From Bacillus sp. F19 (lineage in GTDB: Bacteria > Bacillota > Bacilli > Bacillales > Bacillaceae): 64,000 bases of DNA. Both the position numbers and the translations under genes were made by a program. The DNA lies in contig CP085710.1 in NCBI GenBank assembly GCA_023823795.1, forward strand, positions 4,118,001 to 4,182,000, in the 5' to 3' direction. Below are positions 7,420-22,938 of the stretch, piece by piece. Position 1 is the stretch's first letter. Each line of letters begins with the position of its first letter. Under the pieces are notes generated by a model, which did not search any database, was not told where the DNA came from, and saw only the letters and a list, made by a program, of their open reading frames with translations.

Positions 7420-7492
7420 GGGGCATTAGCTCAGCTGGGAGAGCGCTACGCTGGCAGCGTAGAGGTCATCGGTTCGATCCCGTTATGCTCCA
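7420..7492 (+). tRNA. tRNA-Ala (anticodon GGC)
   Basis: A full cloverleaf is present: acceptor GGGGCAT/ATGCTCC, D-arm GCTC/GAGC, anticodon stem CTACG/CGTAG with loop CTGGCAG (anticodon GGC), T-loop TTCGATC, and discriminator A at 7492. CCA is not encoded. The T-stem has one T-T mismatch, which is also in the second copy at the other end of the element and so was there before integration. The 3' part from 7448 on is the left attachment repeat of the integrated element. Confidence 0.92.
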
Positions 7493-7493
7493 T
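7448..7493 (+). repeat. attL: left 46-bp direct repeat of the integrated element
   Basis: These 46 bases, from the anticodon stem to one base past the tRNA 3' end, recur exactly at 22893-22938. An integrase gene starts ~120 bp inside. The 5' tRNA half is present only here, so this is the reconstituted tRNA. Confidence 0.92.
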
Positions 7494-7511
7494 CTATTGA
7501 TTTACCAACGT

Positions 7512-7547
7512 TTTTACAACGTAATATGTTCGGCAGCGTTACGGTAC
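7512..7547 (+). repeat. Candidate integrase arm sites, left end
   Basis: TTTTACAACG (7512-7521) is matched in inverted orientation at 22831-22840 near the other end. AGCGTTACGGTAC (7535-7547) is matched, with two or three changes, at 22759-22771 and 22782-22794. Short motifs shared only by the two ends suggest integrase arm-binding sites. Confidence 0.5.
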
Positions 7548-7562
7548 TAATTCCGACAGCGC

Positions 7563-7610
7563 AACGCCCTCTTGTACGGTGACATTATCGTATAGGAGGG
7601 CGTTTTTTAT
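7563..7610 (+). terminator. Terminator-like hairpin just inside attL, overlapping the int ribosome site
   Basis: AACGCCCTC (7563-7571) pairs with GAGGGCGTT (around 7595-7603) and is followed by a T-rich tract. The downstream arm contains the AGGAGGG ribosome site of the integrase. It can stop tRNA-Ala transcription, whose native terminator has been displaced to 22943, and can also hold down integrase translation. Confidence 0.6.
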
Positions 7611-7611
7611 T

Positions 7612-8661
7612 TTGCATTCGGAGAACAGGCGCGGAAAGCGTGTTAAGACGGACAGAACGATTAAAGGTTCGCGCAAGAATATCTATTCGATCAGTGCGTT
7701 ATTGGAGAAGGCTTATTTCGCAAAAAAGGCGGAAGGTTTAGCGGAAGGAACGCTATTCAGATATAAACATTCACATTCGCTTTTATTGGAATACTTAACG
7801 CAAAATGACGTCACTGATATTCGGGACTTGTCGCTAGATATCTGTCGCAAATTTGTTACATGGCTCCTAGAGGAACGCGTTAAAAATGACGGTCATAAAT
7901 ACAAGCCGGATTATGAAAAAACCAACGGAGTATCTCCTCGATATGCAAACGATATTATTAAGACGTTGAAAACATCATTCAGCGTGCTTGTAGCGGATGA
8001 ATTAATCGTAGGGAATCCGTTTGAAAAGGTTAAAGTGGTAAAGCAGCCAGAAAAATTAATCGAGGTACTTTCGGTAGATGACCTGAAACGTTTATTAGGC
8101 GTAATGGATCGTAGAGATTATGCCTCCTTTCGCGATTATGTAGTAGTTAACGTAATACTAGATACGCTTTGTCGCGTTGGAGAAATACTGTCTTTGCGGC
8201 TTACAGACGTCGACTTATCTCGTAAAGAAATCGTTATCCAGGCGCAGAATACTAAGACACGCAAAGGACGAATACTCCCGATACAATCAAGAACTGCGCG
8301 GTTAATAGGCGAGCTTATTACCGAAGTATCCGAATTTGAGAGCGAATATATCTTCCTCGCGAATTACGGCGAGCTACTTACGACTAATAATTTCCGCAAA
8401 AGGTTATCGGCTCATGCGAAGAAGGCCGGCATTAAGAAGAAAGTTCATCCACATCTATTGCGCCATACAGCAGCGACTCTTTACCTCGAAGCTGGCGGTA
8501 ATTTACGCTATCTTCAAGCGCTACTAGGACACACTGACCAACGGATGACGTCACGCTACACTCACATATCTAGGGCGTCAATTGCGGATAACCATAGCCT
8601 ATACTCGCCGCTCAACCAAGTAGTTGGAAACTTAAATAAACCGCGTAAAACTAAGCGGTAA
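7612..8661 (+). CDS. int: Tyrosine recombinase/integrase of the element
   Basis: A 349-residue phage-type integrase. It has an N-terminal SAM-like core-binding domain (about 25-125), then the catalytic domain. Active-site residues are visible: Arg in CRVGEILSL, His-x-x-Arg at about 281-284 (HLLRH), His at about 307 (LLGHT), and the nucleophile Tyr at about 316 (SRYTHIS). It would excise and insert the element at tRNA-Ala through the 46-bp repeats. The start is taken as TTG 7612, eleven bases after AGGAGGG; a GTG at 7579 in the same frame lies before the ribosome site and is unlikely. Confidence 0.92.
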   Translation: MHSENRRGKRVKTDRTIKGSRKNIYSISALLEKAYFAKKAEGLAEGTLFRYKHSHSLLLEYLTQNDVTDIRDLSLDICRKFVTWLLEERVKNDGHKYKPDYEKTNGVSPRYANDIIKTLKTSFSVLVADELIVGNPFEKVKVVKQPEKLIEVLSVDDLKRLLGVMDRRDYASFRDYVVVNVILDTLCRVGEILSLRLTDVDLSRKEIVIQAQNTKTRKGRILPIQSRTARLIGELITEVSEFESEYIFLANYGELLTTNNFRKRLSAHAKKAGIKKKVHPHLLRHTAATLYLEAGGNLRYLQALLGHTDQRMTSRYTHISRASIADNHSLYSPLNQVVGNLNKPRKTKR

Positions 8662-8665
8662 TGTA

Positions 8666-8691
8666 GGGACGTCTCCGGACGTCTTTTATTT
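8666..8691. terminator. Terminator between int and the convergent small gene
   Basis: Two GACGTC blocks (8668-8673, 8678-8683) pair across TCCG and are followed by TTTTATTT. Confidence 0.6.
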
Positions 8692-8904
8692 GTATTTGCC
8701 GGTATAATCCCACTTTCCCGCTTCAATCTTTTCGAGGTTATCCGATATCAGTTGGCGCAGTTCCTCCGGAAACGTTTCATCGTCCAATCGCTTTAACGGA
8801 ACCTGCCATATTCCTCCGCGGCCAAAGTCCATCGCCTGGACAACGATATCTAAATTACCGTGAATGTCTGATTTCTTTTGCGTTAACATAATTGCGTAAC
8901 TCAA
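8686..8904 (-). CDS. Small element protein of unknown function
   Basis: About 72 residues, convergent with int. The start is probably TTG 8904, eight bases after GGAGG; ATG 8889 is the alternative. The sequence has a short beta-rich N-terminal part (LDIVVQAMDFGRGGIWQVPL) and an acidic helical end. No family is recognised. The composition matches the element backbone. Confidence 0.55.
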   Translation of the reverse strand: MSYAIMLTQKKSDIHGNLDIVVQAMDFGRGGIWQVPLKRLDDETFPEELRQLISDNLEKIEAGKWDYTGKYK

Positions 8905-9034
8905 CGCAATCACCTCCGTATAGTTATTATATACGAATGTACGTTCTTTTATATAGCTCTAAAATATTTATTATATTTAAAGTTTTTCCAATTAATAGTA
9001 TAATAAGTGCAACTTGATATATGGAGCTGGAGTA

Positions 9035-9934
9035 ATGTCTAGATTTGGAATACTTGTTGGAAATGGTTTCACTTTAGATTATTCAATACCACGAGAATTA
9101 CACTCTTCTTACCCATTAAGCACTTTCAGAAGTAGTAAAATAAGTTATAAAGATTTCATTAACAAGCTACCTGATGTAAAAAAGGACTTGTTACAACAAA
9201 AAGGAAGCTCTCATTTTAACCGAATAAGTGACTATATTGATAAAAACTGGTCAGACGCTAATAAAAACTGTCAACTAAGAAGATTCTTAGCACTAGCTTA
9301 TTCAACTTTTCAACTTACTCTTGATAATCATGATATCAATGAGTGGAGATGGACTGACTGGTTAAGGGAAAATAAAGAAAATCTCGTTTGTGCTATATCT
9401 TTTAATTATGATTTAGTTCTTGAAAATGCATTTAGAGCGGCAGATACTTCATTTTATCGAGTTGGAACTAATGAAGATATAGGTAATATCCCAATTTTAA
9501 AACCACATGGATCACTTGATTTTGATCTTCCAGATAAAATTATTAGCTGCCCTATAGAACAGAGATGGAATATTTCAACTAAACTAAATGATGCGCAGTA
9601 TGTTCAAACAATTCCAAAGTCTGACTGGTTGATACCAAGAATGGAAGCCGACATAATACCACCATCTTTGCATAACATACAATTAAGATTAAGTTGGATT
9701 CAAAAAATGTTTAATATTTATTTAGAGCAAGTCCGTCAAATGGATTCTTTTGTTATTGTAGGATCTTCGTATTGGGGAGTCGATAGAAATGAAATAGATT
9801 TCTTTTTAAAAAATTTAAAAAAAGGATCAAAAGTTTACATAATTGACCCTAATCCAAACATTGACCTTATAAGAAAAGTCCATTCCTTAGAGTTATTATT
9901 TTCGGAGCCAACTAAAAAAGGATTACCTTGGTAA
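9035..9934 (+). CDS. SIR2-like NAD-binding protein (candidate antiphage NADase)
   Basis: A 299-residue stand-alone SIR2-fold protein. It has a glycine-rich NAD loop GILVGNGFTLDYS (about 5-17) and FNYDLVLE (about 123-130, the NYD form of the sirtuin Asn-x-Asp). KPHGSLDF places the catalytic His at about 158. FVIVGSSYWGVD (about 240-252) and VYIIDPNP are the last Rossmann strands. SIR2-like proteins of this kind consume NAD+ in several bacterial defence systems (ThsA, DSR1, SIR2-Argonaute). No sensor domain or partner gene is obvious here. The gene is clearly more AT-rich than the element backbone and has its own terminator, so it reads as imported cargo. The start at ATG 9035 follows GGAG. The NADase role is inference. 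Confidence 0.75.
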   Translation: MSRFGILVGNGFTLDYSIPRELHSSYPLSTFRSSKISYKDFINKLPDVKKDLLQQKGSSHFNRISDYIDKNWSDANKNCQLRRFLALAYSTFQLTLDNHDINEWRWTDWLRENKENLVCAISFNYDLVLENAFRAADTSFYRVGTNEDIGNIPILKPHGSLDFDLPDKIISCPIEQRWNISTKLNDAQYVQTIPKSDWLIPRMEADIIPPSLHNIQLRLSWIQKMFNIYLEQVRQMDSFVIVGSSYWGVDRNEIDFFLKNLKKGSKVYIIDPNPNIDLIRKVHSLELLFSEPTKKGLPW

Positions 9935-9936
9935 TT

Positions 9937-9971
9937 AAAAGCATCTACGTTATGTAGGTGTTTTTAATTTA
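9937..9971. terminator. Bidirectional terminator after the SIR2-like gene
   Basis: GCATCTAC and GTAGGTGT pair around a short loop, with A-run before and T-run after. It serves the convergent genes on both sides. Confidence 0.7.
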
Positions 9972-10197
9972 TCACAATGTAATCCTTTGAATATATACCA
10001 TATTGATTTCCATCACATACTACAAGCCCAGTCTTCGGAGATAATACCTCCTTAACAATCCAAACACTTCCTAAAGGATACCTTATTTCACCCCAACCAG
10101 GATGATTTTCTCTGACTACCATTATTTTATCCCCGACATTGGCTGTTTTCTTTAATCCAGCTATGACAACCACCCCTTGGTTATATTGTATTCTCAT
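9964..10197 (-). CDS. Small protein of unknown function beside the SIR2-like gene
   Basis: 77 residues, beta-rich (VVVIAGLKKTANVGDKIMVV, GSVWIVKEVL, NQYGIYSKDYIVI), suggesting a small SH3-like or OB-like barrel, but no family is recognised. The ribosome site before ATG 10197 is weak; GTG at about 10173 is possible. Its base composition resembles the SIR2-like gene, with which it shares a terminator, so it may have arrived with it. No functional link is shown. Confidence 0.5.
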   Translation of the reverse strand: MRIQYNQGVVVIAGLKKTANVGDKIMVVRENHPGWGEIRYPLGSVWIVKEVLSPKTGLVVCDGNQYGIYSKDYIVIN

Positions 10198-10303: not shown

Positions 10304-10759
10304 TTACTGTAGTCTAGCTTTCATTTCTTTGATTTTCTCTGCAACCTCATCGTCTGTAAGTGGGCGGTATTCTCTATTTATGGCGTCTGTGTTCGTAACT
10401 TCCGATTTATTAACGAGTAATCCCATGCGCTTATAGTAGAGCTCAAGCGCTTTGATGGATCCGAGTCCGTTCGCCCCGCCCCTTAAACATAACTCGCGTA
10501 GCATAGCGTCTGCTTCTGATTGGAAAGAATCCGTAACACGATATGAGATGGCGTTACAGTACGCTATAAACTTCGCATCCTTTGAACGCCAGTTGTAGAG
10601 TGTTTTCGTATCAATGCCGCATTCTTCCGCGATTTCATCATACGTCTTGGACTTGGCGCCTCCGATCGATTCGATATCGCCATTGACGAGCAGCCATGCA
10701 GCTTTTCTTTGGACTCCGCTTATCTGAACCTCTAATTGGTCAAATGTAAGATTGTTCAT
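10304..10759 (-). CDS. phBC6A51-type helix-turn-helix protein (terminase small subunit-like)
   Basis: A 151-residue DNA-binding protein. The central helix-turn-helix is KTYDEIAEECGIDTKTLYNW (about 38-57), followed by an RSKDAKFIAY helix and a C-terminal helical tail. Proteins of this form are annotated as phBC6A51-family HTH proteins and resemble phage small terminase subunits, which select DNA for packaging. In a satellite such a protein could redirect helper packaging. It is the last gene of the leftward operon, 11 bp after its neighbour. HTH seen; packaging role is inference. Confidence 0.65.
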   Translation of the reverse strand: MNNLTFDQLEVQISGVQRKAAWLLVNGDIESIGGAKSKTYDEIAEECGIDTKTLYNWRSKDAKFIAYCNAISYRVTDSFQSEADAMLRELCLRGGANGLGSIKALELYYKRMGLLVNKSEVTNTDAINREYRPLTDDEVAEKIKEMKARLQ

Positions 10760-10770
10760 AATTTCCTCCT

Positions 10771-11364
10771 TTATATAATTACGTTGTGGTTTACTTCGTC
10801 TAACTCGGATTCGATTTCGTTATAGTAAGCGAGAGCTTCGTCATAATCACTTATCGAAGGTCCGGAATGATCTGCCTTTTCTTCTAATATCTCTTGTACC
10901 GATTTAGTATCGTAAATGTCCGTCATTATGTCATCGATGCGGAAAACGTTGGCGATCCCTCTAACTGCGGACTTAGCTTCGATACTTCCGTTTGAGTATA
11001 ATTCCATCACATGCAGTAAATCTGTAGCGTTTACCCATTGACCGCAATGCTCCGGATTTATAGACATACGCAAAAGTTTCAAGTCATTCTCGTATTTATC
11101 GAAGTCGCCCATTTCTACTGGAAGATCGCTATAGAGTAAGACGTCAGCTAAGTCTGCTGCGAAACCAAATATCGGCTTTACTCGCTCAACTAGGATCGCA
11201 CTTAACTCAGGCGATACAAAGTCGCGCGGCGCTTCCGGTTTCTGTCCTTTTGATAAACGAAGTGCTAATCGTTTCTCTTCATTTTCCTCAATAAGTTCAT
11301 CTAATTTCTGAATCTCCGCAAATATATCTTCGTTTGTTTGACTACCTTCAGGTAAATAAGACAT
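10771..11364 (-). CDS. Element protein of unknown function
   Basis: 197 residues, acidic, with a helical N-terminus (QKLDELIEENEEKRLALRL) and a mostly helical remainder ending in SDYDEALAYYNEIESELDE. No transmembrane segment, signal peptide or known motif. It lies between the HTH gene and a frameshifted gene in the leftward operon, so it probably belongs to the element's replication or packaging module. Function unknown. Confidence 0.6.
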   Translation of the reverse strand: MSYLPEGSQTNEDIFAEIQKLDELIEENEEKRLALRLSKGQKPEAPRDFVSPELSAILVERVKPIFGFAADLADVLLYSDLPVEMGDFDKYENDLKLLRMSINPEHCGQWVNATDLLHVMELYSNGSIEAKSAVRGIANVFRIDDIMTDIYDTKSVQEILEEKADHSGPSISDYDEALAYYNEIESELDEVNHNVII

Positions 11365-11367
11365 TAC

Positions 11368-11816: not shown

Positions 11817-12722
11817 TTAACAATTCTTTAAATCTTTAAACAACTGTGGCTCTTTAAGAGCCTGTTTCAATGTTGTTTTTAAAATCTTATGAATTACTTT
11901 TGAAACATGATCAAACTTAACTAAAACCTTCAAATCGCCATTAAAGTCTGCAAAATCACCATGTGCAATATCACTACGATACTCATATAATTTGGCAATA
12001 ACCTTTTCATATCGAACATCCCCAAAAAATTCAGAGAAATTTATCGGATCTTCAAAACGATTATTTAATAAATTTAACTTTGTTTTTATCTGGTGTGTAA
12101 TAGAGACTTGGCCTTTATGAACTAATAACGCCTCTAAGATGGAGAACATCCCAAGTATATAAAAAGGAGATTGATTTGGAATATTCCTCAATTGATAATA
12201 ATCATCTAGAGCTTTTGCAATATAAGTATATTCAACTTTATTAAATTGCTCTAATAAATTATAAATATCTTGAATTTCAATGATGTTAGTTTGGGAAATT
12301 TCTTTGAACTCATAATTTGCTCTAGTAGTATTTTCTGCTATAAAATTTGAATAGGAAAACTGCTGGTACATACTTACTAACTTGGGTAACTTTTCGAACA
12401 AACTGAATAAATCACTTGTTGAAAGAAGTAAGGCTAATTTTATATTAAATCTTGATTGTGATTCATTGTGCTCAACTATCCAATAATTCCAATCCTCAAA
12501 ATTTTCAGTATGGTAATATCTAACATTGTCGTCTTCCTCACCCTTTATTAGCTCATAATTCATTGAGAAGAAACTAATGTTACCTGTTGTGTTTTTAATA
12601 AATTCTACCTGTTGTCTATTAGCTTTTTTCAAGTAATAATCTTGAATTAATTGAACTTCCTGTTCTTCCATTAATAACTTTATTCTGTCGCCGAGAAAAA
12701 TGAAACCTTTGTTATTGGTCAC
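11817..12722 (-). CDS. HEPN-domain protein (ApeA-like), candidate RNase/defence gene
   Basis: 301 residues from GTG 12722, placed nine bases after AAGGAG; a TTG at 12773 has no ribosome site. The C-terminal half is helical and contains an R-x4-H motif (RSDIAH, about 249-254), the hallmark of HEPN ribonucleases. The N-terminal half is beta-rich, as in ApeA/HEPN proteins found in abortive-infection loci. HEPN nucleases cut RNA in toxin-antitoxin and phage defence systems. The gene is strongly AT-rich, sits between two phage-like backbone genes, and has a terminator on each side, like a moron. The HEPN assignment rests on one motif and layout; the defence role is inference. Confidence 0.6.
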   Translation of the reverse strand: MTNNKGFIFLGDRIKLLMEEQEVQLIQDYYLKKANRQQVEFIKNTTGNISFFSMNYELIKGEEDDNVRYYHTENFEDWNYWIVEHNESQSRFNIKLALLLSTSDLFSLFEKLPKLVSMYQQFSYSNFIAENTTRANYEFKEISQTNIIEIQDIYNLLEQFNKVEYTYIAKALDDYYQLRNIPNQSPFYILGMFSILEALLVHKGQVSITHQIKTKLNLLNNRFEDPINFSEFFGDVRYEKVIAKLYEYRSDIAHGDFADFNGDLKVLVKFDHVSKVIHKILKTTLKQALKEPQLFKDLKNC

Positions 12723-12783
12723 TAAGATAATCTCCTTTTTGCTAATTATCTTACAACTATCAATTTTATTCAATTTGATAAAT

Positions 12784-12824: not shown

Positions 12825-13541
12825 TTATTCGGTTTCTTCTGCTTGTTTTGCTTCAAAGTAACTCTCCGGATTATTCATTTGCTCGAATGTACCGCGCTCG
12901 AATTGTTGGCCTACGCTATCGGATACGGCAAAGTTAAAAATTCTTGCATCCATCATACCTTCGACGGCTTCGATAACTTCCTTCGCTTCTTTCTGTTCAT
13001 CAGTTGCGAATGAGCTGTTTAATCTTCCGTATACTTCGCTAAGAGCAAGCTTTATTTCTCCGGCTTCTGCTCCTGTTGCGCTACTGATGATCGGAGTAAT
13101 TACGCTAGAAAACTGACTGCAGAAATCACTCGCAATAAAAGGATCCGAGATTGATTTTACGAAGTCTTGGACTAGCGCTTTCGCAGATGAAGGCTTTAGC
13201 GATAGCATGACGTTTGTTCTAAGTTCCTCAACTTGTGCGCGGTACTTGGTCATCGTCTTTTCGTCAGGCTGTTTTAATGGCGCATCCAGGAGTTTTTCTG
13301 CGGTTGCTTTGGCTTTATTTAACTCGCCCTGATATTCATCTTTGATTTGCTTTGATAGCCTTAAAAGGTCTTCTTTGTAATCATCTTTAAGACTCTGGAT
13401 TGCTAGGTCTTTACCAATCCTAGATAGTGTTTTACTTGTTCTGATTTGCGCGATATCAGCCTGCATCTTCTTCATTAATTCTAAATACTTAGTTGTTGAA
13501 TTTTGCTTGATTAAGTGAGCTGCTTCGATATTTGTTTTCAT
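12825..13541 (-). CDS. Element coiled-coil protein of unknown function (paralogue of the next gene)
   Basis: 238 residues, highly charged and helical, with a predicted coiled coil over about residues 20-100. The region SEVYGRLNSSFATDEQKEAKE resembles DLYGRLEEVKSGDM in the neighbouring 248-residue protein; both share a long helical N-terminus, a ~60-residue hinge and this YGRL segment. The ribosome site is AAGGGGATT before ATG 13541. Possibly a structural or DNA-associated protein; family not recognised. Confidence 0.6.
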   Translation of the reverse strand: MKTNIEAAHLIKQNSTTKYLELMKKMQADIAQIRTSKTLSRIGKDLAIQSLKDDYKEDLLRLSKQIKDEYQGELNKAKATAEKLLDAPLKQPDEKTMTKYRAQVEELRTNVMLSLKPSSAKALVQDFVKSISDPFIASDFCSQFSSVITPIISSATGAEAGEIKLALSEVYGRLNSSFATDEQKEAKEVIEAVEGMMDARIFNFAVSDSVGQQFERGTFEQMNNPESYFEAKQAEETE

Positions 13542-13607: not shown

Positions 13608-14354
13608 TTATCTCTTATTCGGATTGTGTTGGTTGTGCTTATGATCCTTGAACGTCTTATGTGTCATCTGTAATCGTCTGAACGCTCCGTCTGCTGATCC
13701 CGGCAGTGATTGCGCAATCTTTACGGCAAGCATATCGCCCGACTTAACCTCTTCTAACCTTCCGTATAAGTCCTTCGCTTTTCTCGTTAATTCATCCGCA
13801 AATTTATGTCCATGTGTTGCCTCAGTAACACGGCTAATTTCCTGCAGTAACGCCAGCTTGCGAGTGTCCGTCATATAGGGTACTTGGGCGATCAGGCTGT
13901 CTAGCGTGACTCTGCCGTCTCCTAGTTTAATTGCGGTAACTGTCTCGGAAACTACATCTCTCGCTGCCTTGCGCTCATCATCTGAAATAAATCGGCGCTT
14001 GTTTGCCGCATCTCTCATCGCTTCCTCTTTCATAGCTTCAACGATTCCGGAATACTGACGATTGAGCTCCGTTACTTCCTTCTCTAATTCGGATTTCATT
14101 TCAGCAGCATAGAAATCGATGGCGCCTTCGACTTTATATTCCGGACGCGGACTTTTAATCATCTCGTCATACTTCTTTCGATATCTTGCTACCGCATTAT
14201 TAATGCCGTTTTCTAGCTCATCTAATTTGTTAAACTCTACGACGATCCCATTTCCGCTACGCTCGATTTGATATGCTGAACTCGGATCCATTGACTGTAA
14301 TGATTGACTAGGTAATCCGTTTACTTCGCTTGTTAAAAATACTTTCTTTTCCAT
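13608..14354 (-). CDS. Element coiled-coil protein of unknown function
   Basis: 248 residues. A short N-terminal segment is followed by a helical, charged body (NAVARYRKKYDEMIKS...MKSELEKEVTELNRQY) and a basic, His/Asn-rich tail (DHKHNQHNPNKR). It shares layout and a DLYGRL-type segment with the 238-residue gene just downstream, so the two are probably ancient duplicates. CGGAGGAATT precedes ATG 14354. Function unknown. Confidence 0.6.
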   Translation of the reverse strand: MEKKVFLTSEVNGLPSQSLQSMDPSSAYQIERSGNGIVVEFNKLDELENGINNAVARYRKKYDEMIKSPRPEYKVEGAIDFYAAEMKSELEKEVTELNRQYSGIVEAMKEEAMRDAANKRRFISDDERKAARDVVSETVTAIKLGDGRVTLDSLIAQVPYMTDTRKLALLQEISRVTEATHGHKFADELTRKAKDLYGRLEEVKSGDMLAVKIAQSLPGSADGAFRRLQMTHKTFKDHKHNQHNPNKR

Positions 14355-15011: not shown

Positions 15012-15075
15012 CCTCATCCATCCCCCTTTCGATTTATGTAGCGTCTCTCCACGTTTCAGCTTCATCAAGACATAA

Positions 15076-15112: not shown

Positions 15113-16075
15113 TTAATTTAAATTGTCGCTAAGAGTGAATAATGCCTTTGCTACAGCTAACGTCTCAGGTTTTCCCGCGAATACTAAGTCAGGGCTTATG
15201 ATGACGCCTTTCTTACCGGCTGCCTTGTAGCTTGTTCCGTAATACCCGAATACCGGCTTACCTTCGTACTTGATTTTCTCGATTATGCTGACGAGATTTT
15301 CTGTCCGTTTGTATCCAAGTAATGCCGCAAGCTTCGATACTGACATCGGCTTGATTAGTTCTAAATTGCTTTCAGTCGGATTAAAGCAGATAACGTTGTA
15401 ACCGAAGTTAACAAATGGCAATACAGCGTAGAGAGTCGCCAGCTGCTTAATCGTCCGTCCGTTATATGCGTGATAAAGCTCTCGCGCAGTATTCCGGAAT
15501 AATCTAACGTAAGACTTATCGCTGATATCGTAGTTGTTTTCTTTCATATTACCGCGATAGAATAACGTCGGATTCATAAAAAGATGACCTGTTTCTTTAT
15601 CTTCCGCGATTATCTCCGCATCCAATAGCCGATGAAAGAGCTCCGCAAATCCGCCGTGAGACATCCGCGTTAAGGTTTCTAGCCCTCTCCGGTCGATCGG
15701 TACGCCGTTATCGTACTTTAGCTGACCGTCACCCCATCCGGTATAAGTTCCGATAAACATAACCCTCGCGAAATCAGACTGAGTTAAATTGGGAAAAGTC
15801 GCGTCCATAGTCGAAAGTGAATTAAACATCGCGAATACAAACCCCCCGTTTTCATTTTCGTGGTCAGCCATATCTGAATTGTTCTTGAATGCCGTAACCT
15901 GTGCTTCCGTTGTTTTTAATACGATTTCTACGCGGTCAGATACATCGTTTCCTTCATTGTCAGTAATTACCCCGTTTTTAATGGTCGCATTCTGCTTAAT
16001 AGATAGATGGCGCGCTTTTTGCTTAGTTGATAGGTTGCTCCATACCCTTTGTTCTTCCATCCCGTTTCTGCTCAT
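15113..16075 (-). CDS. Winged-helix protein, probable replication initiator (RepL-like)
   Basis: 320 residues from ATG 16075, which has AAAGGGGAAAG upstream. The central region (about 85-170) runs FNSLSTMDATFPNLTQSDFARVMFIGTY ... GLETLTRMSHGGFAELFHRLLDAEII ... GHLFMNPTLFYRGN. This is the order of helices and the 'xxxNPxxFxRG' wing seen in plasmid RepL proteins and related MarR-like initiators. A second helical DNA-binding-like block follows (MSVSKLAALLGYKRTENLVSIIEKI). Two direct repeats, each with inverted halves, lie just upstream and may be its binding sites. The role in replication versus regulation is not settled. Confidence 0.5.
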   Translation of the reverse strand: MSRNGMEEQRVWSNLSTKQKARHLSIKQNATIKNGVITDNEGNDVSDRVEIVLKTTEAQVTAFKNNSDMADHENENGGFVFAMFNSLSTMDATFPNLTQSDFARVMFIGTYTGWGDGQLKYDNGVPIDRRGLETLTRMSHGGFAELFHRLLDAEIIAEDKETGHLFMNPTLFYRGNMKENNYDISDKSYVRLFRNTARELYHAYNGRTIKQLATLYAVLPFVNFGYNVICFNPTESNLELIKPMSVSKLAALLGYKRTENLVSIIEKIKYEGKPVFGYYGTSYKAAGKKGVIISPDLVFAGKPETLAVAKALFTLSDNLN

Positions 16076-16091
16076 TTTCTTTCCCCTTTCC

Positions 16092-16146
16092 AAAAAGTTC
16101 GTTTTTCATGAACAAATCAGCCAAAAGTTTCGTTTTTCGTGAACAA
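16092..16146 (-). repeat. Two direct repeats (operator or iteron-like) upstream of the RepL-like gene
   Basis: 16092-16115 and 16122-16146 are near-identical ~24-bp units. Each has GTTC/GAAC-type inverted halves around a T-rich centre (GTTTTTCATGAAC and GTTTTTCGTGAAC). They lie directly before the ribosome site of the winged-helix gene, suiting either autoregulation or an origin. Confidence 0.6.
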
Positions 16147-16348
16147 GCTAAAAGCGCCTTCAACCTTACAGCCGCAAGGGTTACAGCGTTTTTTGCGTTT
16201 GCTGGTATATCTTAGTCATCTAAGACCTTGCGCCTTCACATTCGTTCGGCGCCATACTTTTTCTCTTTAAAACCTTTTCGCAATAAGAATATATAATACA
16301 TACCGTTGAGGGCGGTTTTACCCGAAACGGAGGGCGCCTTTTGCCCTG

Positions 16349-16582
16349 TTACTTACCGTTATTAAACGTTTTAATAAGATCGTCTAACTGGCGCAATAAC
16401 TCCGGAGTAAGTCCGAATTCACCCGTTACCTTCTTGCGCACATCATCCGATATTATTCTTTCGCCGCGCTCAAGCTTCGTAATCAGCGACTGACTTACGT
16501 TAAGCCGGTCCGCCATCCCTTTTTGCGATAATCCGCTTAAACCGCGAATAACGTTTAAAAGCTCTGGGTTCATCCCGTGCAT
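16349..16582 (-). CDS. XRE-family helix-turn-helix regulator
   Basis: 77 residues. The Cro/C1-type HTH is VIRGLSGLSQKGMADRLNVSQSLITKLERGERIISDDVRKKV (about 11-52) and fills most of the protein. It would bind DNA as a small repressor or anti-repressor inside the leftward operon. A hairpin-rich stretch separates it from the RepL-like gene. Target sites not identified. Confidence 0.75.
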   Translation of the reverse strand: MHGMNPELLNVIRGLSGLSQKGMADRLNVSQSLITKLERGERIISDDVRKKVTGEFGLTPELLRQLDDLIKTFNNGK

Positions 16583-16762: not shown

Positions 16763-17746
16763 TTATTTTACCTTCTTTCGAATCCTGGATAACTTTTTTC
16801 TAAATCCATCGTAAGAAACGCCCATCTTTTCCGCGATGTACTTGCTAGATATGCGCAGTTCTCCTTCTTCGTTGCATGTGTAGTTATCCGTTTCTCTACT
16901 GTCGAAGTCCGCTAGTACAATCTGCATGATTGCGTCCATGAAGTCGCGCTGACTCTTCGATAATTTATCCGCGTGTCCTCTATAGTCAACGCCTAGAATC
17001 GTCTCATACAAGTTCTCCGGAAAGTGAGGATTTATGATACTGCTGTTCGTTCTCCCATAACCACTCTTCCTGCGGATCCGGCGCAATCCATTCCTTTTAA
17101 TCTCATCGTCGGAAAGCTTGCTGCTAAACGTTTGATTGATATACTTAACGATTTCACTGTCCGTCTTGCTTGCGTCAACATACTTTAGAGCGTATTCTAG
17201 CGCCTTTATTGCCGATTGATTAACTTCTGCTATACGAGCATCTTTCTCTTCCTTAGAACGCATCATAGATGAATAGAATTGTTCGAATAAGCTTTCGAAA
17301 TGTGCACGCTGGCTCTTGTTAAACATATCTTCGAATCGCTCACCGATATCCTTTAACTGCGGCTTCAACTGTTCGAACAGGTCGGCCGTTAGGGTAAAGT
17401 AATACTGATAGTAATCTTTATCGTAGATTTCCGCGTCAAACTTAATGCCAAAGTCTATATAGATAATCGATAGTAGGCGCTGGAAATCCTTTTCGTAGCT
17501 GGCCCAAACGTGCTCCTCTTTACCGACACTTTTCATAATTAACTCGCGCATAGCTCTAATGCGATATGCAATGTAATCTTCCGGATTCTTTAGCGAGATC
17601 GTTATATCGCCGCTCGGACTCTTACCTTTAACCCTTTCGCGTGTCCAATTCTCCATGAAGCGCTGCTCTACCGCAGTCATAATTTTATTGATTATCGTTC
17701 TATCTCCGATCGCCTGATATCGTCTTATATCGTCCTGTATCGTCAA
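16763..17746 (-). CDS. Sigma-factor-like protein with C-terminal HTH
   Basis: 327 residues. The N-terminal two thirds are helical and unmatched. The C-terminus (SKYIAEKMGVSYDGFRKKLSRIRKKVK) is a helix-turn-helix like sigma-70 region 4 or phage sigma-like regulators. Starts at TTG 17746, ten bases after GGGGG. It could direct transcription of element genes; inference from the HTH only. Confidence 0.5.
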   Translation of the reverse strand: MTIQDDIRRYQAIGDRTIINKIMTAVEQRFMENWTRERVKGKSPSGDITISLKNPEDYIAYRIRAMRELIMKSVGKEEHVWASYEKDFQRLLSIIYIDFGIKFDAEIYDKDYYQYYFTLTADLFEQLKPQLKDIGERFEDMFNKSQRAHFESLFEQFYSSMMRSKEEKDARIAEVNQSAIKALEYALKYVDASKTDSEIVKYINQTFSSKLSDDEIKRNGLRRIRRKSGYGRTNSSIINPHFPENLYETILGVDYRGHADKLSKSQRDFMDAIMQIVLADFDSRETDNYTCNEEGELRISSKYIAEKMGVSYDGFRKKLSRIRKKVK

Positions 17747-17853: not shown

Positions 17854-18168
17854 TTAAGACTTAAATAGTAATTTCAGAAGTTCGGGAACCGTGAGACTCG
17901 CCAAAGCCAACGGATCTTCGAGCTTTTTTGTTTTGCCCGCCAGGTTTAAATCAAAGCGATTGCCGTCGCTATCTACATCGATAAACACTACGTAATCTTC
18001 ATTACTTACCGCATCTACTTCGCGGAAAACTATCTCGTCATCATTAATTTCATAAACGATTGTCGGAGCGATTAGATAACCGATTGCCGTCTCGGTAAAA
18101 CGCTCTTTTGTATCGCTAAATCTGCCGTTAAATACTATCGTTATCTTGCGCGGTTGAAATTCCGTCAT
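17854..18168 (-). CDS. Element protein of unknown function
   Basis: 104 residues, beta-rich and acidic (RKITIVFNGRF, ETAIGYLIAPTIVYEI, DYVVFIDVDSDG) ending in a short Leu-rich helix. Its ATG overlaps the TGA of the upstream gene by four bases (18165-18168). No family recognised. Confidence 0.6.
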   Translation of the reverse strand: MTEFQPRKITIVFNGRFSDTKERFTETAIGYLIAPTIVYEINDDEIVFREVDAVSNEDYVVFIDVDSDGNRFDLNLAGKTKKLEDPLALASLTVPELLKLLFKS

Positions 18169-18542
18169 ATCTCTATCGCTCCTAAAACTTCTTCTAGCGA
18201 CATTGTGCTGTTTAATTGACGCCGTATCTCGCAGGATGTTCGGACCGCTTTACCGTACTGAGTTTCTACCGTCTGGACTTGATCGCGCAGCATATAGTAC
18301 ACCGGCTGAATCTTTTTCATTTCGTCCTTCACAACGCGTCTATGCGTAAGGGTAGTTTTAAGTTTCTGCATTAAATCGCGACCTTCTGCGCCATCTACTG
18401 AATCCAAGCGCTCGATATCGTGGTAAGTATCCGCCAGTTGTCTGTCGAGAGCAGATTGTAATCCGTTTAATTTTTCGAATCCTGATTTAACTTCCGCATT
18501 CAGCTGCGTTAGTTGTAGGAAAAATTGCTCCGAATAGCTCAT
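18165..18542 (-). CDS. Element helical protein of unknown function
   Basis: 125 residues from ATG 18542, with AAAGGAG upstream inside the end of the previous gene. Entirely helical, with probable coiled coils (QLTQLNAEVKSGFEKLNGL and QVQTVETQYGKAVRTS). Coupled to the next gene by ATGA. No family recognised. Confidence 0.6.
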   Translation of the reverse strand: MSYSEQFFLQLTQLNAEVKSGFEKLNGLQSALDRQLADTYHDIERLDSVDGAEGRDLMQKLKTTLTHRRVVKDEMKKIQPVYYMLRDQVQTVETQYGKAVRTSCEIRRQLNSTMSLEEVLGAIEI

Positions 18543-18546
18543 ACGT

Positions 18547-18891
18547 TTAGTTCGCTCCTTTACCCTTTTCGACATAACCGGATGCTCTCGCGATTGCAAA
18601 GATAAGGTCTGCAGCTGACATCGTTTCAAGCATCCATAAATCGAATTGTTCCGTATCAAACGCAATACCGTGAATGCTGAATACTTCATCAAGAATCAGT
18701 CCGGCAGAGTCAATCTTCTCAACCTTAATTTCGTTTTCGTAAATTGTTGCGACAAGACCGTCGGCCAGTTTTAGCGACACCTGTTGCTCCACATACACTT
18801 CATAAGGCTCAGGATCGTACCATGTGAAATGCGTATTCACTTCCTCGAAGCTTTCTTTCGGTTCGTTACTGATCCATTCAAATTTACTCAT
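18547..18891 (-). CDS. First gene of the leftward operon, unknown function
   Basis: 114 residues from ATG 18891, eight bases after GGAGG. The middle is beta-rich (VYVEQQVSLKLADGLVATIYENEIKVEKI) and the end is a helix (DLIFAIARASGYVEKG). It sits directly downstream of the operator cluster at 18918-19029 and is likely the first product made when repression is lifted. Confidence 0.6.
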   Translation of the reverse strand: MSKFEWISNEPKESFEEVNTHFTWYDPEPYEVYVEQQVSLKLADGLVATIYENEIKVEKIDSAGLILDEVFSIHGIAFDTEQFDLWMLETMSAADLIFAIARASGYVEKGKGAN

Positions 18892-18917
18892 TTTACATTC
18901 CTCCAAAGTTTTTTTAT

Positions 18918-19079: not shown

Positions 19080-19334
19080 ATGCCGTACAAGTTCTTCTTA
19101 AAGGAAGTATTAGAGGAAATCGATCAGTCCAGGAATTCAATCGCAGTTGAAGCGAAGGTCAGACCGGCGTCTTTATACGATATATACCACGGGAAAATGA
19201 AGAGGATTGAGCTCGAAAGCTTCGGCCGGATCCTTGATACGATTAACATGTTCGCGGAAAAGAAGGGAATCGATAAGCGCTATACGATCGAAAGCATTGT
19301 CCGGTATGAATACGAAGGCGAGGGCGTTAACTGA
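19080..19334 (+). CDS. Small HTH regulator (Cro/C1-like), probable master repressor of the element
   Basis: 84 residues. The N-terminal half reads as a compact XRE-type HTH (LEEIDQSRNSIAVEAKVRPASLYDIYHGK) followed by a helical dimerisation-like part. It is divergent from the long leftward operon and lies next to the four repeated operator-like sites, so it likely binds them. The ribosome site is AGGGAGAGG. Confidence 0.65.
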   Translation: MPYKFFLKEVLEEIDQSRNSIAVEAKVRPASLYDIYHGKMKRIELESFGRILDTINMFAEKKGIDKRYTIESIVRYEYEGEGVN

Positions 19335-19519: not shown

Positions 19520-19996
19520 TTAAGCACCCTTTACTGATTTCCTAATTACAATTACAGTTTCGAAGTATGATAGTATTGCTTGGAAATCGTCCTCTATATG
19601 TTCCCTAGAGTGCACTACGTAATCACCATTATTATATGGACTTATAATTATTTCTCTATCTTCAAAGAATATCGTGGCTCTTACTGCTTTTATACGGCTG
19701 CTGTAATACACATTATTATATTCCACATTCATCCTAACAATTGAATTTAAGTTAACCACTTCCCTAGAGATATCCATTTCCAACTGATGTTGATCTTCCG
19801 TTGGTTTAGCGGTGTAACTATAGATTTCTAAACTGTCTTCATTTGCGACCATAACCTTTCCCTCATAGTCAGCATTTGATAAATCAACTTCAATTCCAAT
19901 AGGACTCGATTTACTATAAAAGTTTTCTTTAATAATTGCGCAGAATTTCCTTATAGCTAATTGATCCGAATAATTTAGTCTTGTTAATAACTTCAA
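19520..19996 (-). CDS. AT-rich cargo protein of unknown function
   Basis: 158 residues from TTG 19996 with a strong AAGGAGGTT upstream. It alternates strands and helices (GIEVDLSNADYEGKVMVANEDSLEIYSY ... RATIFFEDREIIISPYNNGDYVV) with no membrane segment. The base composition is like the SIR2-like and HEPN genes rather than the element backbone. It may be another accessory gene; family not recognised. Confidence 0.55.
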   Translation of the reverse strand: MKLLTRLNYSDQLAIRKFCAIIKENFYSKSSPIGIEVDLSNADYEGKVMVANEDSLEIYSYTAKPTEDQHQLEMDISREVVNLNSIVRMNVEYNNVYYSSRIKAVRATIFFEDREIIISPYNNGDYVVHSREHIEDDFQAILSYFETVIVIRKSVKGA

Positions 19997-20118
19997 TGCT
20001 TATAACCTCCTTTTTTTGTAATGATTCGACAATTTTTTACCAAAAACCTCCTATAAATTAACATGAAATTAAAATATTTAATTTATAATTATATTTATTT
20101 ATATCTTGGAGGGACAAT

Positions 20119-20331
20119 ATGAGTTTAGAGAGCGCGAATCGCAATATTTTAGAATTTATGAGGTTCGGTAAAATCCGCATTGATATCTTTGAATTTCCGG
20201 AATCATACGAAGTGGTTGCGAAGATCGGTCGCTGCAGCTATATTGCAAGAGGTTCCGATAAGTGGGAAACGATTAACAAGGCGCTTGCCCGTGTCGCTCG
20301 ATTACACCGCGAAATGCAGGAGCCGAAGTAA
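20119..20331 (+). CDS. Small element protein of unknown function
   Basis: 70 residues (MSLESANRNILEFMRFGKIR...), a helix, a three-stranded region (IDIFEFPESYEVVAKIGRCSYIARG) and a C-terminal helix. GGAGGGACAAT precedes the ATG. The composition matches the backbone. It ends exactly where the direct repeat flanking the next cargo gene begins. Confidence 0.6.
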   Translation: MSLESANRNILEFMRFGKIRIDIFEFPESYEVVAKIGRCSYIARGSDKWETINKALARVARLHREMQEPK

Positions 20332-20359: not shown

Positions 20360-20531
20360 TAAATCCGGCTTATGTCTAATTTTCACCGCGGATTTGTTTC
20401 GTATACTTGTTGAGTCATATGCAGGAGTCTATAAATTTATTTATTTGTAAAAATTATCTTTTTTTGTCTATTAATATCATTTTTTGATAAAATATAACTA
20501 TTACAAATATCATATAGATTGGGGACAAATT

Positions 20532-21455
20532 ATGGAAATTACTGGAGTGAAAAGAATAAGGAACTGTATGAATTATCTTATTGGTGTTGGAGACTCAGAC
20601 GTATTTTATTTAGGAATTAAGATAGATGAAACAATTAAATCAAAATTAATCGAATTGGGGTTTAGTGACAAGCAAAATAATGGGGAGTCCCTATGCCCTA
20701 AAAATACCTATGGTTCAGTAAGTAAGTTTAATTCATTAGGTGGTCATCTTAAAAGACCTGATTTACCTAAACAAACCACTTATTATTCTTATTGGAGTGA
20801 ATGGACTCTGAATGGATATTATTATAATGGGATCCAATTTCGCAGTAGAGAAATTATTCATAGAGAAATTATCCCTCCACCATCTTTCGAGTTAACCATT
20901 TTAGAAAAAGACCGTAACAAATATATAGTTATTGATAAGCTGTTTAATAACTCAGAGGAATTTTATAAAGAAATAACTCATGGAATAAATTTATTATTAG
21001 AGATATTCAAGTCAGCAACTGTGTATAAAGAAGATTTTTCGAATTTTACAACCACTACGAGACAGAAGTTAGATTGGATTGTCCTCCCGAGTGGGGACAG
21101 ACCATGGGAAACCAGTACACCAGTTATAAAAGAATTTATTGATTCACTTTCAAGAAAGAATCAGCCTGTAATTGTGGATAGATGGTCTAAAATTAAAGAG
21201 CATAAGCCTGATAAAGAAATCTTAGGTACAAAAGGGTATAGAGGTTATATAGTTTTTGTTTTCAAAGAAAAAAACATTTCGATATTTGAGAGCGCTTTAT
21301 ATGGCAATGCAACTTATGTTTTTGAAGGTGACTGGGAAGATCTGTCTAAACTTACCAAAGCTGAAATAATAAATGAAAATCTATATAAAGACAGAATAAT
21401 CCATACTAGAGAATGGTCAACTAAGATTAATAATTTACTTCAAGATCCTGCTTAA
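20532..21455 (+). CDS. AT-rich cargo protein of unknown function
   Basis: 307 residues from ATG 20532 (TTGGGGACAAAT upstream). No signal peptide or membrane segment. The C-terminal ~90 residues (GYRGYIVFVFKEKNISIFES, ALYGNATYVFEGDWEDLSKLTKAEI) look like a distinct domain found at the end of uncharacterised bacterial proteins, with a conserved YGNATYVF core. The N-terminal part has a W/Y-rich stretch near 80-100. It has its own terminator and is flanked by imperfect direct repeats, so it appears to be an insertion into the element. A defence role is possible but unsupported by any motif I know. Confidence 0.6.
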   Translation: MEITGVKRIRNCMNYLIGVGDSDVFYLGIKIDETIKSKLIELGFSDKQNNGESLCPKNTYGSVSKFNSLGGHLKRPDLPKQTTYYSYWSEWTLNGYYYNGIQFRSREIIHREIIPPPSFELTILEKDRNKYIVIDKLFNNSEEFYKEITHGINLLLEIFKSATVYKEDFSNFTTTTRQKLDWIVLPSGDRPWETSTPVIKEFIDSLSRKNQPVIVDRWSKIKEHKPDKEILGTKGYRGYIVFVFKEKNISIFESALYGNATYVFEGDWEDLSKLTKAEIINENLYKDRIIHTREWSTKINNLLQDPA

Positions 21456-21658: not shown

Positions 21659-21778
21659 ATGAACCGTGTCAGATCAACGTTTGTTTACTACGAAATATTA
21701 TACGATATGCACGTTCTTATACATCGTAGTGATACCAACGGTTGCGAGCGCTACATCATCCGTTATTTCCCGCAATAA
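21659..21778 (+). CDS. Possible 39-residue gene in an otherwise gene-poor stretch
   Basis: An open frame MNRVRSTFVYYEILYDMHVL... ends in TAA at 21776. Amino-acid content is protein-like, but there is no convincing ribosome site. The remainder of 21501-22005 holds no recognisable gene; it is GC-richer than the cargo and contains CCCCGCCCC near 21545. Confidence 0.3.
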   Translation: MNRVRSTFVYYEILYDMHVLIHRSDTNGCERYIIRYFPQ

Positions 21779-22005
21779 CTGCATAAACTTTGCGCATGAT
21801 CGACCGCCTTGACCCCGAGGTTTTGGCAGCGTCTCTCCGTCCGGACCACACAGCCGATAAAATGGGTAGTGTTGCACGGTGTGAGTGCGCTAATATCGGC
21901 AAATATCGGCAACTAAAGTAATGTTCCGTAATACTGTCATAGTCGCACGATAGACGTCATACATATGTAGTGTAACGCTAATCGAATTACGGGAGGCTAT
22001 ACGCT

Positions 22006-22128
22006 ATGACTAAAGAGAACGCTATTATCTTACTTACGCAGGATAACGTTTACCTTACTGAAGAGGGCCGGTTAATGCTCGAATCACTACTTGCGGAGGA
22101 AAGCGAATGTGTTATCGCCCAACCGTAA
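22006..22128 (+). CDS. Small element protein (40 residues)
   Basis: MTKENAIILLTQDNVYLTEEGRL..., helical. GGGAGG lies ten bases before the ATG. It overlaps the next gene's start by 22 bases, so it heads a compact rightward operon of three overlapping genes at the right end of the element. Confidence 0.55.
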   Translation: MTKENAIILLTQDNVYLTEEGRLMLESLLAEESECVIAQP

Positions 22129-22472
22129 GATATGACGATGTGTACCGCTCCTATATCAATTCCCTTTTCCGCGCTACTAATCTCGATCGCAATCAACTCA
22201 TAAGACTTGCGCTATTCACTGCCGGTCACTCAGGCGAATATTACACAATCTTACGTCAGCACAAACGCAAAGACGTCCCTACCCTTCCCTCTCCGATATG
22301 GAAGCCGAATCAGCACGGTTATTGGACGGAGCAGGTATTCGCGGTAGAAGAGGAGGTGGATACGGATGCGAGACGTCAGCAAGCGCCAGAGAGACGAGAA
22401 AGGCCGCTTCACAATTCAGCCGAACCAATCCGAATTACTAACGCAGGAGGCATTAGATTCTCGCTGGAATAA
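22107..22472 (+). CDS. Element protein of unknown function
   Basis: 121 residues. GGAGGAAAGCGA precedes ATG 22107. The N-terminal part (YRSYINSLFRATNLDRNQLIRLALFTAGHS) resembles a ribbon- or helix-type DNA-binding segment. The last third overlaps the next gene in another frame and is less protein-like (Arg/Pro-rich). Family not recognised. Confidence 0.55.
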   Translation: MCYRPTVRYDDVYRSYINSLFRATNLDRNQLIRLALFTAGHSGEYYTILRQHKRKDVPTLPSPIWKPNQHGYWTEQVFAVEEEVDTDARRQQAPERRERPLHNSAEPIRITNAGGIRFSLE

Positions 22473-22599
22473 AGTCGTCATTAAAAAGATCCCGGACACT
22501 CACGCAAGCTATCTGATTAAGCAGCGGTTGTTTACCGAGATAGAATCAGAGATTGCACTCATAATTAGTGCAACGCTTGTCTTATCGATATTCATTTAA
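22366..22599 (+). CDS. Small element protein with a C-terminal hydrophobic segment
   Basis: 77 residues. Basic N-terminus (RDVSKRQRDEKGRF) and a hydrophobic stretch at the end (IALIISATLVLSIFI) that could be a membrane anchor. GGAGGTGG precedes the ATG at 22366 inside the previous gene, an overlap of 107 bases. Convergent with a 42-residue gene, whose last four bases it overlaps. Confidence 0.5.
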   Translation: MRDVSKRQRDEKGRFTIQPNQSELLTQEALDSRWNKVVIKKIPDTHASYLIKQRLFTEIESEIALIISATLVLSIFI

Positions 22600-22724
22600 C
22601 TTTTACGGCCGGACGTTGAATCGTCTGGTCTATTTTTATCCGCGTTTTCTTTTGCGATTCTAATTAGTGCTGGCTTGATCGCATTGTAGAAGTTCTTTAA
22701 CGCATCTTCTGACGGTTTATTCAT
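22596..22724 (-). CDS. Small element protein (42 residues)
   Basis: MNKPSEDALKNFYNAIKPAL..., one helix and a charged tail. An excellent AAGGAGGTGAGCG precedes ATG 22724. It reads away from the right attachment site, and the pair of arm-type motifs lies in its leader. Function unknown; possibly an excisionase-like or regulatory peptide, from position only. Confidence 0.5.
   Translation of the reverse strand: MNKPSEDALKNFYNAIKPALIRIAKENADKNRPDDSTSGRKS
22607..22637. terminator. Hairpin at the convergent gene ends
   Basis: GGCCGGACG and CGTCTGGTC pair around six bases, followed by TATTTTT. It overlaps the 3' part of the 42-residue gene. Confidence 0.55.
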
Positions 22725-22758
22725 ATACGCTCACCTCCTTGTCGCGAAAAAAGTCGAC

Positions 22759-22840
22759 AGCGTAACGGTATGAAACGTTGAAGCGTAACGGTGCTATGCG
22801 GTATAATGCGAGTATAATCGTATAAGAGGTCGTTGTAAAA
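22759..22840. repeat. Candidate integrase arm sites, right end
   Basis: AGCGTAACGGTAT (22759-22771) and AGCGTAACGGTGC (22782-22794) repeat the left-end motif AGCGTTACGGTAC. CGTTGTAAAA (22831-22840) is the inverted copy of TTTTACAACG at 7512. About 50-130 bp from attR. Confidence 0.5.
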
Positions 22841-22892
22841 CCGTGTGCGCACGCCATTCTTGGCGAATGACATTTCGGAGAGGTATTAACGG

Positions 22893-22938
22893 ACGCTGGC
22901 AGCGTAGAGGTCATCGGTTCGATCCCGTTATGCTCCAT
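22893..22938 (+). repeat. attR: right 46-bp direct repeat of the integrated element
   Basis: Identical to 7448-7493. It is the displaced original 3' part of tRNA-Ala; the upstream bases do not form the 5' half of a tRNA, so this is not a second tRNA gene. Confidence 0.92.

Follow-up and report, generated by a model that had tools for sequence, protein, structure and literature searches.

Phage-inducible chromosomal islands (PICIs) of the Staphylococcus aureus pathogenicity island (SaPI) type are elements of ~15 kb that carry an integrase, a divergent repressor, a replication protein, a small terminase (TerS) and cargo, have no virion shell, and use attachment (att) sites that phages do not use. 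The capsid-forming PICIs (cf-PICIs) possess a capsid of their own and a packaging module with large terminase (TerL) and portal. According to the accessible part of PMC12987554, the PICI-like elements (PLEs) of Vibrio are the first known satellite family building chimeric satellite-phage tails, and putative tape-measure (tmp) genes also occur in PLE-like elements and cf-PICIs. Here we analysed a 64,000-nucleotide stretch of Bacillus sp. F19 (GCA_023823795.1, contig CP085710.1, positions 4,118,001 to 4,182,000; hereafter the window, to which coordinates refer unless another sequence is named), in which an integrated element occupies positions 7448-22938. It is a TerS-bearing member of a real family of elements in Bacillaceae and related families, whose members are probable phage satellites. 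We consider it likely, as judged from sequence, that the window element is a helper-dependent satellite and one branch of a family with exchangeable virion-assembly genes at the operon end. No account of this family was found in the literature searched, where it is apparently undescribed. The phages used for comparison were the temperate siphophages vB_BauS_KLEB27-1 (OM654379; hereafter KLEB27-1) and phi18-2 (OR208547), of 64.5-65.0 kb; G and L numbers are our handles for genomes and other sequences.

The boundaries of the element, which a preliminary description had placed in a tRNA-Ala gene, were confirmed. The sole tRNA gene of the window, tRNA-Ala(ggc) at 7420-7492, contributes its 3' part to a 46-bp direct repeat without mismatches, whose two copies start 15,445 bp apart; only one other direct-repeat family of at least 20 nt exists between 7300 and 23300 (30 nt at 77%), and elsewhere in the window genome (G000) the repeat finds matches of 76-83% at most. 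The left flank is present in all eight genomes of the genus, its own included. The aligned genome G002 has an empty site, in which a single repeat copy lies between the left flank and 77 bp of the right one, while in G006, likewise aligned, the same flanks and repeats enclose a different 2.9-kb insert. Thus, the repeats, the single copy in G002 and the alternative insert in G006 identify 7448-22938 as an integrated element which, as expected of satellites in general, has an integrase within defined boundaries:

7448..22938, no strand: whole integrated element, with 46-bp perfect direct repeat and an empty site in G002
7448..7493, plus strand: attL, 3' part of tRNA-Ala; repeat matching, at 84% over 45 bp, a phi18-2 site next to the integrase
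22893..22938, plus strand: attR, 46-bp repeat

Rfam returned the tRNA, a match within the element that stays below the gathering score, and two more immediately outside it. The G006 insert (L161, G006:C1:1404001-1420000, ~9,900-12,900) encodes a 48% homologue of the protein at 8686-8913, the window-type integrase was not matched in it, and it is possibly a mini-element or remnant at the same site. At an unrelated place, G006 holds an extra perfect copy of the 46-bp att with 38 bp of right-flank sequence (L163, G006:C1:3250001-3266500, 15334-15416).

Between the repeats lie the integrase, the divergent repressor, a leftward operon running from 18906 to 9964 and four AT-rich genes. Of the 22 open reading frames (ORFs) listed, 20 were scanned against Pfam and PHROGs, 10 against NCBIfam and nine against PADLOC. 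The features that define the backbone are:

7579..8661, plus strand: tyrosine integrase (start may be 7612); PF00589, E 8e-38; nearest phage relatives in KLEB27-1 and phi18-2, 45%
10304..10759, minus strand: TerS homologue near the end of the leftward operon; phrog_7344, E 1.8e-15; HTH_Tnp_1_2, E 8e-22
12825..13541, minus strand: 238-aa element protein, with a family alignment
15113..16093, minus strand: Rep-like core protein (probable start 16075); phrog_9501, a family of unknown function, E 4e-26
16094..16190, minus strand: noncoding site directly upstream of rep, candidate origin or packaging site; core 16165-16188 plus two direct repeats
16349..16582, minus strand: XRE-type regulator; HTH_3, E 3e-9; homologues beside rep in G043, G080 and G024
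19080..19334, plus strand: divergent repressor-like gene; HTH_26, E 0.015; 40-42% in G080, 45% in G155

The integrase, the divergent repressor switch and the TerS-like protein of the preliminary description are all in place. XRE-type genes flank the divergent gap 18907-19079 on both sides, and the best promoter-like match (18980-18952, 11/12) falls within it; promoter-like matches in the region number 43, with no excess over shuffles (43.7). The label RepL-like for 15113-16093 had to be given up, as neither Pfam nor NCBIfam nor any PDB relative (best E 0.26) supports it and phrog_9501 is the only match. Genes for a shell, a motor, a tail or lysis were not recognised in the element, either among the 20 ORFs scanned or by homology to the two related phages, in agreement with the absence of structural genes described before.

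In its size, integrase, divergent repressor, replication protein, TerS, cargo and lack of a shell, the window element resembles a SaPI. It differs, however, in that the ORFs scanned include no primase family, its Rep belonging to phrog_9501 instead, in that its integrase lies at the operon end beside attL, in the tail genes of its sister elements, and in an att that resembles the phi18-2 one. Since no PICI-type primase was recognised, the integrase is at the operon end and the att is phage-like, we do not file the element as a PICI.

A search for Rep in 151 genomes gave matches in 19, among them six close homologues besides that of the window (E <=4.5e-59). The 30-36 kb around each of these six share gene order with the window element, and an exact direct repeat, 36-94 bp long, delimits each of the six elements. 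Wider searches yielded four more bracketed elements, and the 238-aa protein, found in 8 of the 151 genomes, pointed to five new places, four of them bracketed:

Close Rep homologues: G024, 16.8 kb; G043 (Bacillus glycinifermentans GO-13), 16.4 kb; G065 (B. paralicheniformis KJ-16), 16.1 kb; G080 (Bacillus sp. WMMC1349), 16.8 kb; G074, 15.2 kb; G003, 16.4 kb
Wider searches: G358, 17.8 kb; G155, 16.5 kb; G244, 9.3 kb; Paenibacillus amylolyticus L051, 16.6 kb (repeat of two exact pieces, 29 and 26 bp, in one register)
238-aa protein: G022, 17.2 kb; G115, 16.7 kb; G130, 7.8 kb; G017, 8.1 kb

With the window element, the family thus includes 15 members bracketed by repeats. Twelve measure 15.2-17.8 kb (mean 16.5, SD 0.7) and three 7.8-9.3 kb, and their sites are tRNA-Ala, tRNA-Arg and tRNA-Leu genes and 3' ends of protein genes. 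The synteny that had been proposed as a check was found: elements of comparable length, likewise bracketed by repeats and inserted at different tRNA genes or gene ends, carry the backbone proteins in conserved order. Two contigs of IMG/VR, L057 and L059, are further members that lack one or both ends and stand outside the 15; G046, with a 238-aa homologue but no att repeat, and distant Rep matches (e.g. G007, G084, G109, G121, G198, G234, L056, L062) were not counted. The 238-aa protein has no match in 50,697 phage records. A scan of viral contigs with its family returned none, which is not evidence of absence because it missed the known member on L057. In the Rep tree, a single branch with support 98/97 separates 13 element sequences from four contigs typed as phage by homology of their neighbouring genes (L049, L050, L058, L061); the tree is unrooted for this purpose and gives no order of origin, and seven further rows fall in neither group.

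The sister elements encode tail genes that the preliminary description did not foresee. In G024, G043, G065 and G080, the operon end, occupied by TerS in the window, encodes a tail tape-measure protein (TMP), identified by families for G043 (phrog_5493, E 6e-152; PF10145, E 2e-50) and G024 (phrog_1533, E 3e-115; PF10145, E 3e-48), and for G065 and G080 by a genome search and their identity to the G043 protein (89 and 74%, respectively). A scan of sister proteins was based on the 288 ORFs of 13 elements (11 bounded ones, L057 and L059), of which 182 were eligible (at least 75 aa, not of the Int, Rep, TerS or TMP class, and not running across the boundary of a fetched sequence, a condition that removed two ORFs). 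Of these, 144 rows were given to the scan, after 22 near-duplicates or HTH_36 proteins and the 16 proteins of the window had been set aside. As this covers the 25 commonest of 35 Pfam and of 129 PHROG families and cannot exclude rare virion genes, we took proteins for structure, packaging and lysis, 23 from KLEB27-1 and 19 from phi18-2, as queries against the DNA of the same 13 elements, using five prophage stretches as controls. For 33 of the 42 queries no element gave a match, whereas 36 matched at least one control stretch. TerL, portal, minor capsid, major capsid, major tail, baseplate, tail fibres and holin were found in none of the 13. The six queries without a control match were gp21, XhlA, endolysin and holin of KLEB27-1 and amidase and holin of phi18-2; since the control prophages are silent too, the absence of holin and most lysis genes says little. 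Neither these elements nor the window ORFs scanned thus hold a gene set for a virion of their own, a further general mark of satellites.

What the elements do hold differs between them. TMP occurs in eight of the 13 (G024, L057, G358, L059, G155, G043, G080, G065) and full-length TerS in four (window, G074, G155, L051), with N-terminal fragments in G003 and L059. Pieces of other virion genes include the N-terminal half of the distal tail protein (Dit) in G065, 49 residues of the endolysin end in G080, and in G358 scaffold residues 119-187 of 228 within a 130-aa ORF (also phrog_2303). Furthermore, a 712-aa ORF of G358 starts with 146 N-terminal residues of a phi18-2 tail protein, and its remainder, with no PHROG or PDB match, looks like a beta-helix spike; the ORF matches three phage records of the phi18-2 group and one Caldibacillus phage. 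In L051, a 486-aa protein (no Pfam match, an unnamed PHROG only, 33 and 39% to the TMPs of L059 and G155) is followed by a DUF2577 protein, a 191-aa ORF and TerS. Relatives of the TMP-like, DUF2577 and TerS genes are also present in G022, where a homologue of 10771-11364 precedes TerS. L059 encodes a tail assembly chaperone (PF08890, E 4e-20) upstream of TMP, with one ORF between. In G115 there is a weak TMP-like stretch (22-28%), and a head-tail-joining-type protein was weakly matched. Nine of the 15 bounded elements have TMP or a TMP-like gene (three of them weak) and five a full TerS; as three have both and four neither (G003, G244, G130, G017), the two genes alternate or combine and are not mutually exclusive. 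The G155 element, with TerS and TMP, also encodes an FtsK/SpoIIIE-like ATPase (region of L090 8466-9761; phrog_1358, E 8e-105) that has a weak relative in phi18-2.

The TMPs of one subgroup are under purifying selection, with pairwise dN/dS of 0.16 (G043/G065), 0.12 (G043/G080) and 0.11 (G065/G080); the value for G024/L057 is 0.36 and includes the swapped block described below. The idea that satellite TMPs are shortened for short tails was dropped for the main groups, as G024 has 933 aa against 934 in KLEB27-1 and G043 1032 against 1043 in phi18-2; shorter satellite TMPs of 701, 644 and 486 aa also exist.

Several genes relate the family to a single group of phages. Over 934 residues, the TMPs of G024 and KLEB27-1 share 88% identity, and no other of the 321 matching phage records falls into the 80-90% band; those of G043 and G080 align with the phi18-2 TMP over the full length at 46-47%. 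Between the G024 and L057 elements, identity is 98% over 8.2 kb and 95-99% over two further stretches; where they differ is an accessory stretch (~24.9-27.6 kb of G024) and one TMP block: residues 1-40 of the TMP agree at 98% and every bin from 399 on at 90% or more, but the bins from 81 to 358 at 18-50%. In this block G024 is 92-100% identical to KLEB27-1, and L057 44-80% to a prophage on contig 2 of G065. We read the difference as a segment swap with phage alleles.

In the window, the integrase, TerS, att and noncoding core all appear to point to the same phages. TerS is 39% identical to that of KLEB27-1, its nearest phage relative (one other phage record matches), and 50% to G074. No tRNA gene was found at the phi18-2 site that resembles the window att. 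The 24-bp core at 16165-16188 is also present in G024, G080, L057, phi18-2 and the distant G109, and with two mismatches in KLEB27-1; it arose in none of 100 shuffles of the window and none of 100 of the phi18-2 piece. Of 81 family genomes, ten encode portals of this group (KLEB27-1 type in eight, phi18-2 type in three, both in G065), including G007 of the window's genus, and in six of the ten (G018, G033, G061, G076, G047, G007) a distant Rep homologue lies 4.8-10.3 kb from the portal.

In the phages, a 180-aa tyrosine-recombinase-like protein adjoins TerL (KLEB27-1 gp114, L167 42231-42776; phi18-2 gp02, L165 985-1536), and it recurs in the elements of G024, L057, G358, G155, G244 and G115. 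Phi18-2 GP93 (L168 35702-36088; 63701-64087), annotated as helix-turn-helix, is similar to satellite and prophage TerS and is probably the phage small terminase. The accessible part of PMC9476937 calls the 268TH phages temperate, and a table in that of PMC8347963 lists, for a B. pumilus prophage, proteins of 934, 475, 463 and 626 aa, which agree in size with the products of KLEB27-1 genes; that part of the latter paper makes no use of the word 'satellite'.

The remaining genes of the element include further operon members and the AT-rich genes:

8686..8913, minus strand: 75-aa att-proximal protein; 89-90% in G003
9014..9934, plus strand: AT-rich gene for a SIR2-like protein; PF13289, E 1.8e-4, slightly under the curated cut-off; 31.3% GC
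9964..10197, minus strand: 77-aa protein after TerS; no Pfam or PHROGs match
10771..11364, minus strand: 197-aa operon protein before TerS; 31% homologue at the same place in G022
11817..12773, minus strand: AT-rich insertion in the operon; 28.4% GC; one R-x4-H motif at residue 266; no family match
13608..14354, minus strand: 248-aa operon protein; 29% homologue in G244
14512..14748, minus strand: small operon ORF; no family match
14874..15068, minus strand: small operon ORF; 71-75% in G003
16763..17746, minus strand: 327-aa operon protein with a weak sigma-factor-like C-terminus; phrog_1190, E 1.5e-5; 44-45% in G065
17854..18168, 18165..18692 and 18547..18906, minus strand: first genes of the leftward operon; homologues in G065, G043 and G080
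19520..20331, both strands: gene pair 19520-19996 (minus) and 20119-20331 (plus), common to G003 at 38 and 72%
20484..21455, plus strand: AT-rich gene, probable cargo; 30.9% GC; no family match
22107..22472, plus strand: 121-aa backbone protein; 55% in G003, 49% in G358

Of the claim that at least four AT-rich genes carry their own terminators, the base composition held (31.3, 28.4, 32.7 and 30.9% GC against 42.0% for the rest of the element), whereas terminator-like sequences were seen only at the ends of 11817-12773 (11787-11768) and 20484-21455 (21442-21466). Nor is 19520-19996 free cargo; because it recurs as a pair with 20119-20331 in G003, it belongs to the backbone. We take the R-x4-H motif at residue 266 to be HEPN-like, and the SIR2-like gene and this HEPN-motif gene are probably anti-phage cargo, judging by their motifs, although PADLOC on nine window proteins gave weak matches only and called no defence system.

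Elsewhere in the family, the G043 and G065 elements encode a 475-aa protein near the repressor (L033 3333-4757, L032 10401-11825, L035 3678-5105), with a weak Lipase_3 match for L032 10401-11825 (PF01764, E 1e-4) and C-terminal similarity between copies; G043 has an additional copy just outside its left att. Outside the element, the window contains transposase-like ORFs of IS3 and IS110 types at 2197-3599 and 31320-32593, noted by eye, and on the minus strand at 51592-57518 what we take, from reading the ORFs, to be a thiazole/oxazole-modified peptide cluster (cyclodehydratase, YcaO-like and nitroreductase-like genes), whose CFNCF-repeat precursor presumably resembles heterocycloanthracin.

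From homology and gene order we infer the following cycle. The element would reside in tRNA-Ala under control of the divergent repressor pair until a phage of the KLEB27-1/phi18-2 type, the presumed helper, enters or is induced and the leftward operon is switched on. Int would then excise the element, Rep would replicate it from the site just upstream of rep, and TerS would direct the helper's large terminase selectively to satellite DNA, which would leave in helper-made particles. In the sister elements, TMP with or without chaperone, the Dit piece, the scaffold fragment and the tail-spike-like gene may instead re-route packaging, capsid or tail assembly, and the resulting particles may be chimeric. 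More tentatively, and with odds that we put somewhat below even, this could be a Gram-positive family that exploits a single group of siphophages of 65 kb at interchangeable steps of virion assembly, in which swaps of gene sets and TMP domains produce chimeric tails that deliver the satellite, and packaging sets element lengths at about one quarter (~16.4 kb) and one eighth (~8 kb) of the helper. A quarter of a 64-68-kb phage genome is 16.1-17.0 kb, and three elements lie near one eighth.

A number of observations weigh against a helper-dependent satellite. The noncoding core is absent from nine of the 13 elements; no helper prophage was found in the window genome (no PF10145 match, and no portal match at the limit used); and co-residence of satellites with helper-type prophages shows no excess (2/9 versus 8/72, Fisher p 0.31), so that satellites and helpers may meet only by infection. 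In addition, the Dit half, endolysin end and scaffold fragment of G065, G080 and G358 could be relics of phage recombination, and two members are damaged, the rep of G155 having two stops and the TMP of G065 being ~70 residues shorter with an altered 5' end. Such partial pieces and damaged genes, together with the integrase, Rep, TerS, TMP and others shared with these phages, would also suit independently decaying prophages of the KLEB27-1/phi18-2 type, whose tail and terminase genes are leftovers. We nevertheless regard this as unlikely: decay would hardly leave the same order, similar lengths and intact repeats across separate genera and sites, the same 33 queries missing from all 13 elements, TMPs under purifying selection, and operon proteins unmatched in the phage records. 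Remnants of several virion modules were not found in the window element, and the relatives compared, apart from TMP, TerS and the partial pieces named, are without the virion genes that a deleted prophage should have left in them, such as TerL, portal, capsids, major tail, baseplate and fibre.

Somewhat less probable still is an anti-phage island whose assembly genes act as poisons or decoys that spoil helper tails or packaging and shield the host, with spread in particles secondary or absent. The AT-rich SIR2-like gene and the gene with the HEPN-like motif would fit such a role, as would the closeness of most satellite TMPs to phage TMPs in length, yet 15 elements retain intact repeats along with integrases, TMP segments track phage alleles as expected of working virion parts, and PADLOC calls no system. 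We can largely dismiss a mobilizable or conjugation-dependent integrative element with lost or borrowed transfer functions, to which an integrase, tRNA site, repressor and cargo would also be usual and for which a weak NikA-like match in 10771-11364 (E 0.026) and the FtsK/SpoIIIE-like protein of G155 might speak, as no relaxase or mating-pair family was recognised for window proteins or among the 25 commonest of 35 families of sister proteins, and conjugation has no use for TerS or TMP. As far as sequence goes, the reading as phage satellites thus withstands the comparisons by which the preliminary description proposed to judge it.

Like the Vibrio PLEs, as described in the accessible part of PMC12987554, where the word 'Bacillus' does not appear, the present family includes satellites that encode a tape measure, and L059 likewise combines chaperone and TMP; it differs from them in its hosts and phage group, in that the window member has TerS and neither TMP nor chaperone, and in that the role of the PLE TMP was tested experimentally while the TMPs here are known from sequence. 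Some cf-PICIs, by the same partial source, have putative tmp genes alongside other virion genes, as our sister elements do, whereas homologues of capsid, portal and TerL occur in none of the 13 elements compared. KLEB27-1 and phi18-2, in turn, hold relatives of TerS, TMP, the Dit and scaffold pieces, the spike N-terminus, the integrase and the noncoding core, but are whole phages, whereas the elements are without shell, motor and most tail genes. The novelty of the family is that TMP and other tail genes alternate or combine with TerS inside one family, which makes it a new version of a known satellite type. It would represent a second TMP-carrying satellite family, apparently unrelated to the first and found in Bacillus, for which temperate phages already isolated are likely helpers and nature provides a swapped TMP block. 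Such a system would make it possible to study how a satellite benefits from having a TMP of its own, and which step of assembly suffices to divert a phage.

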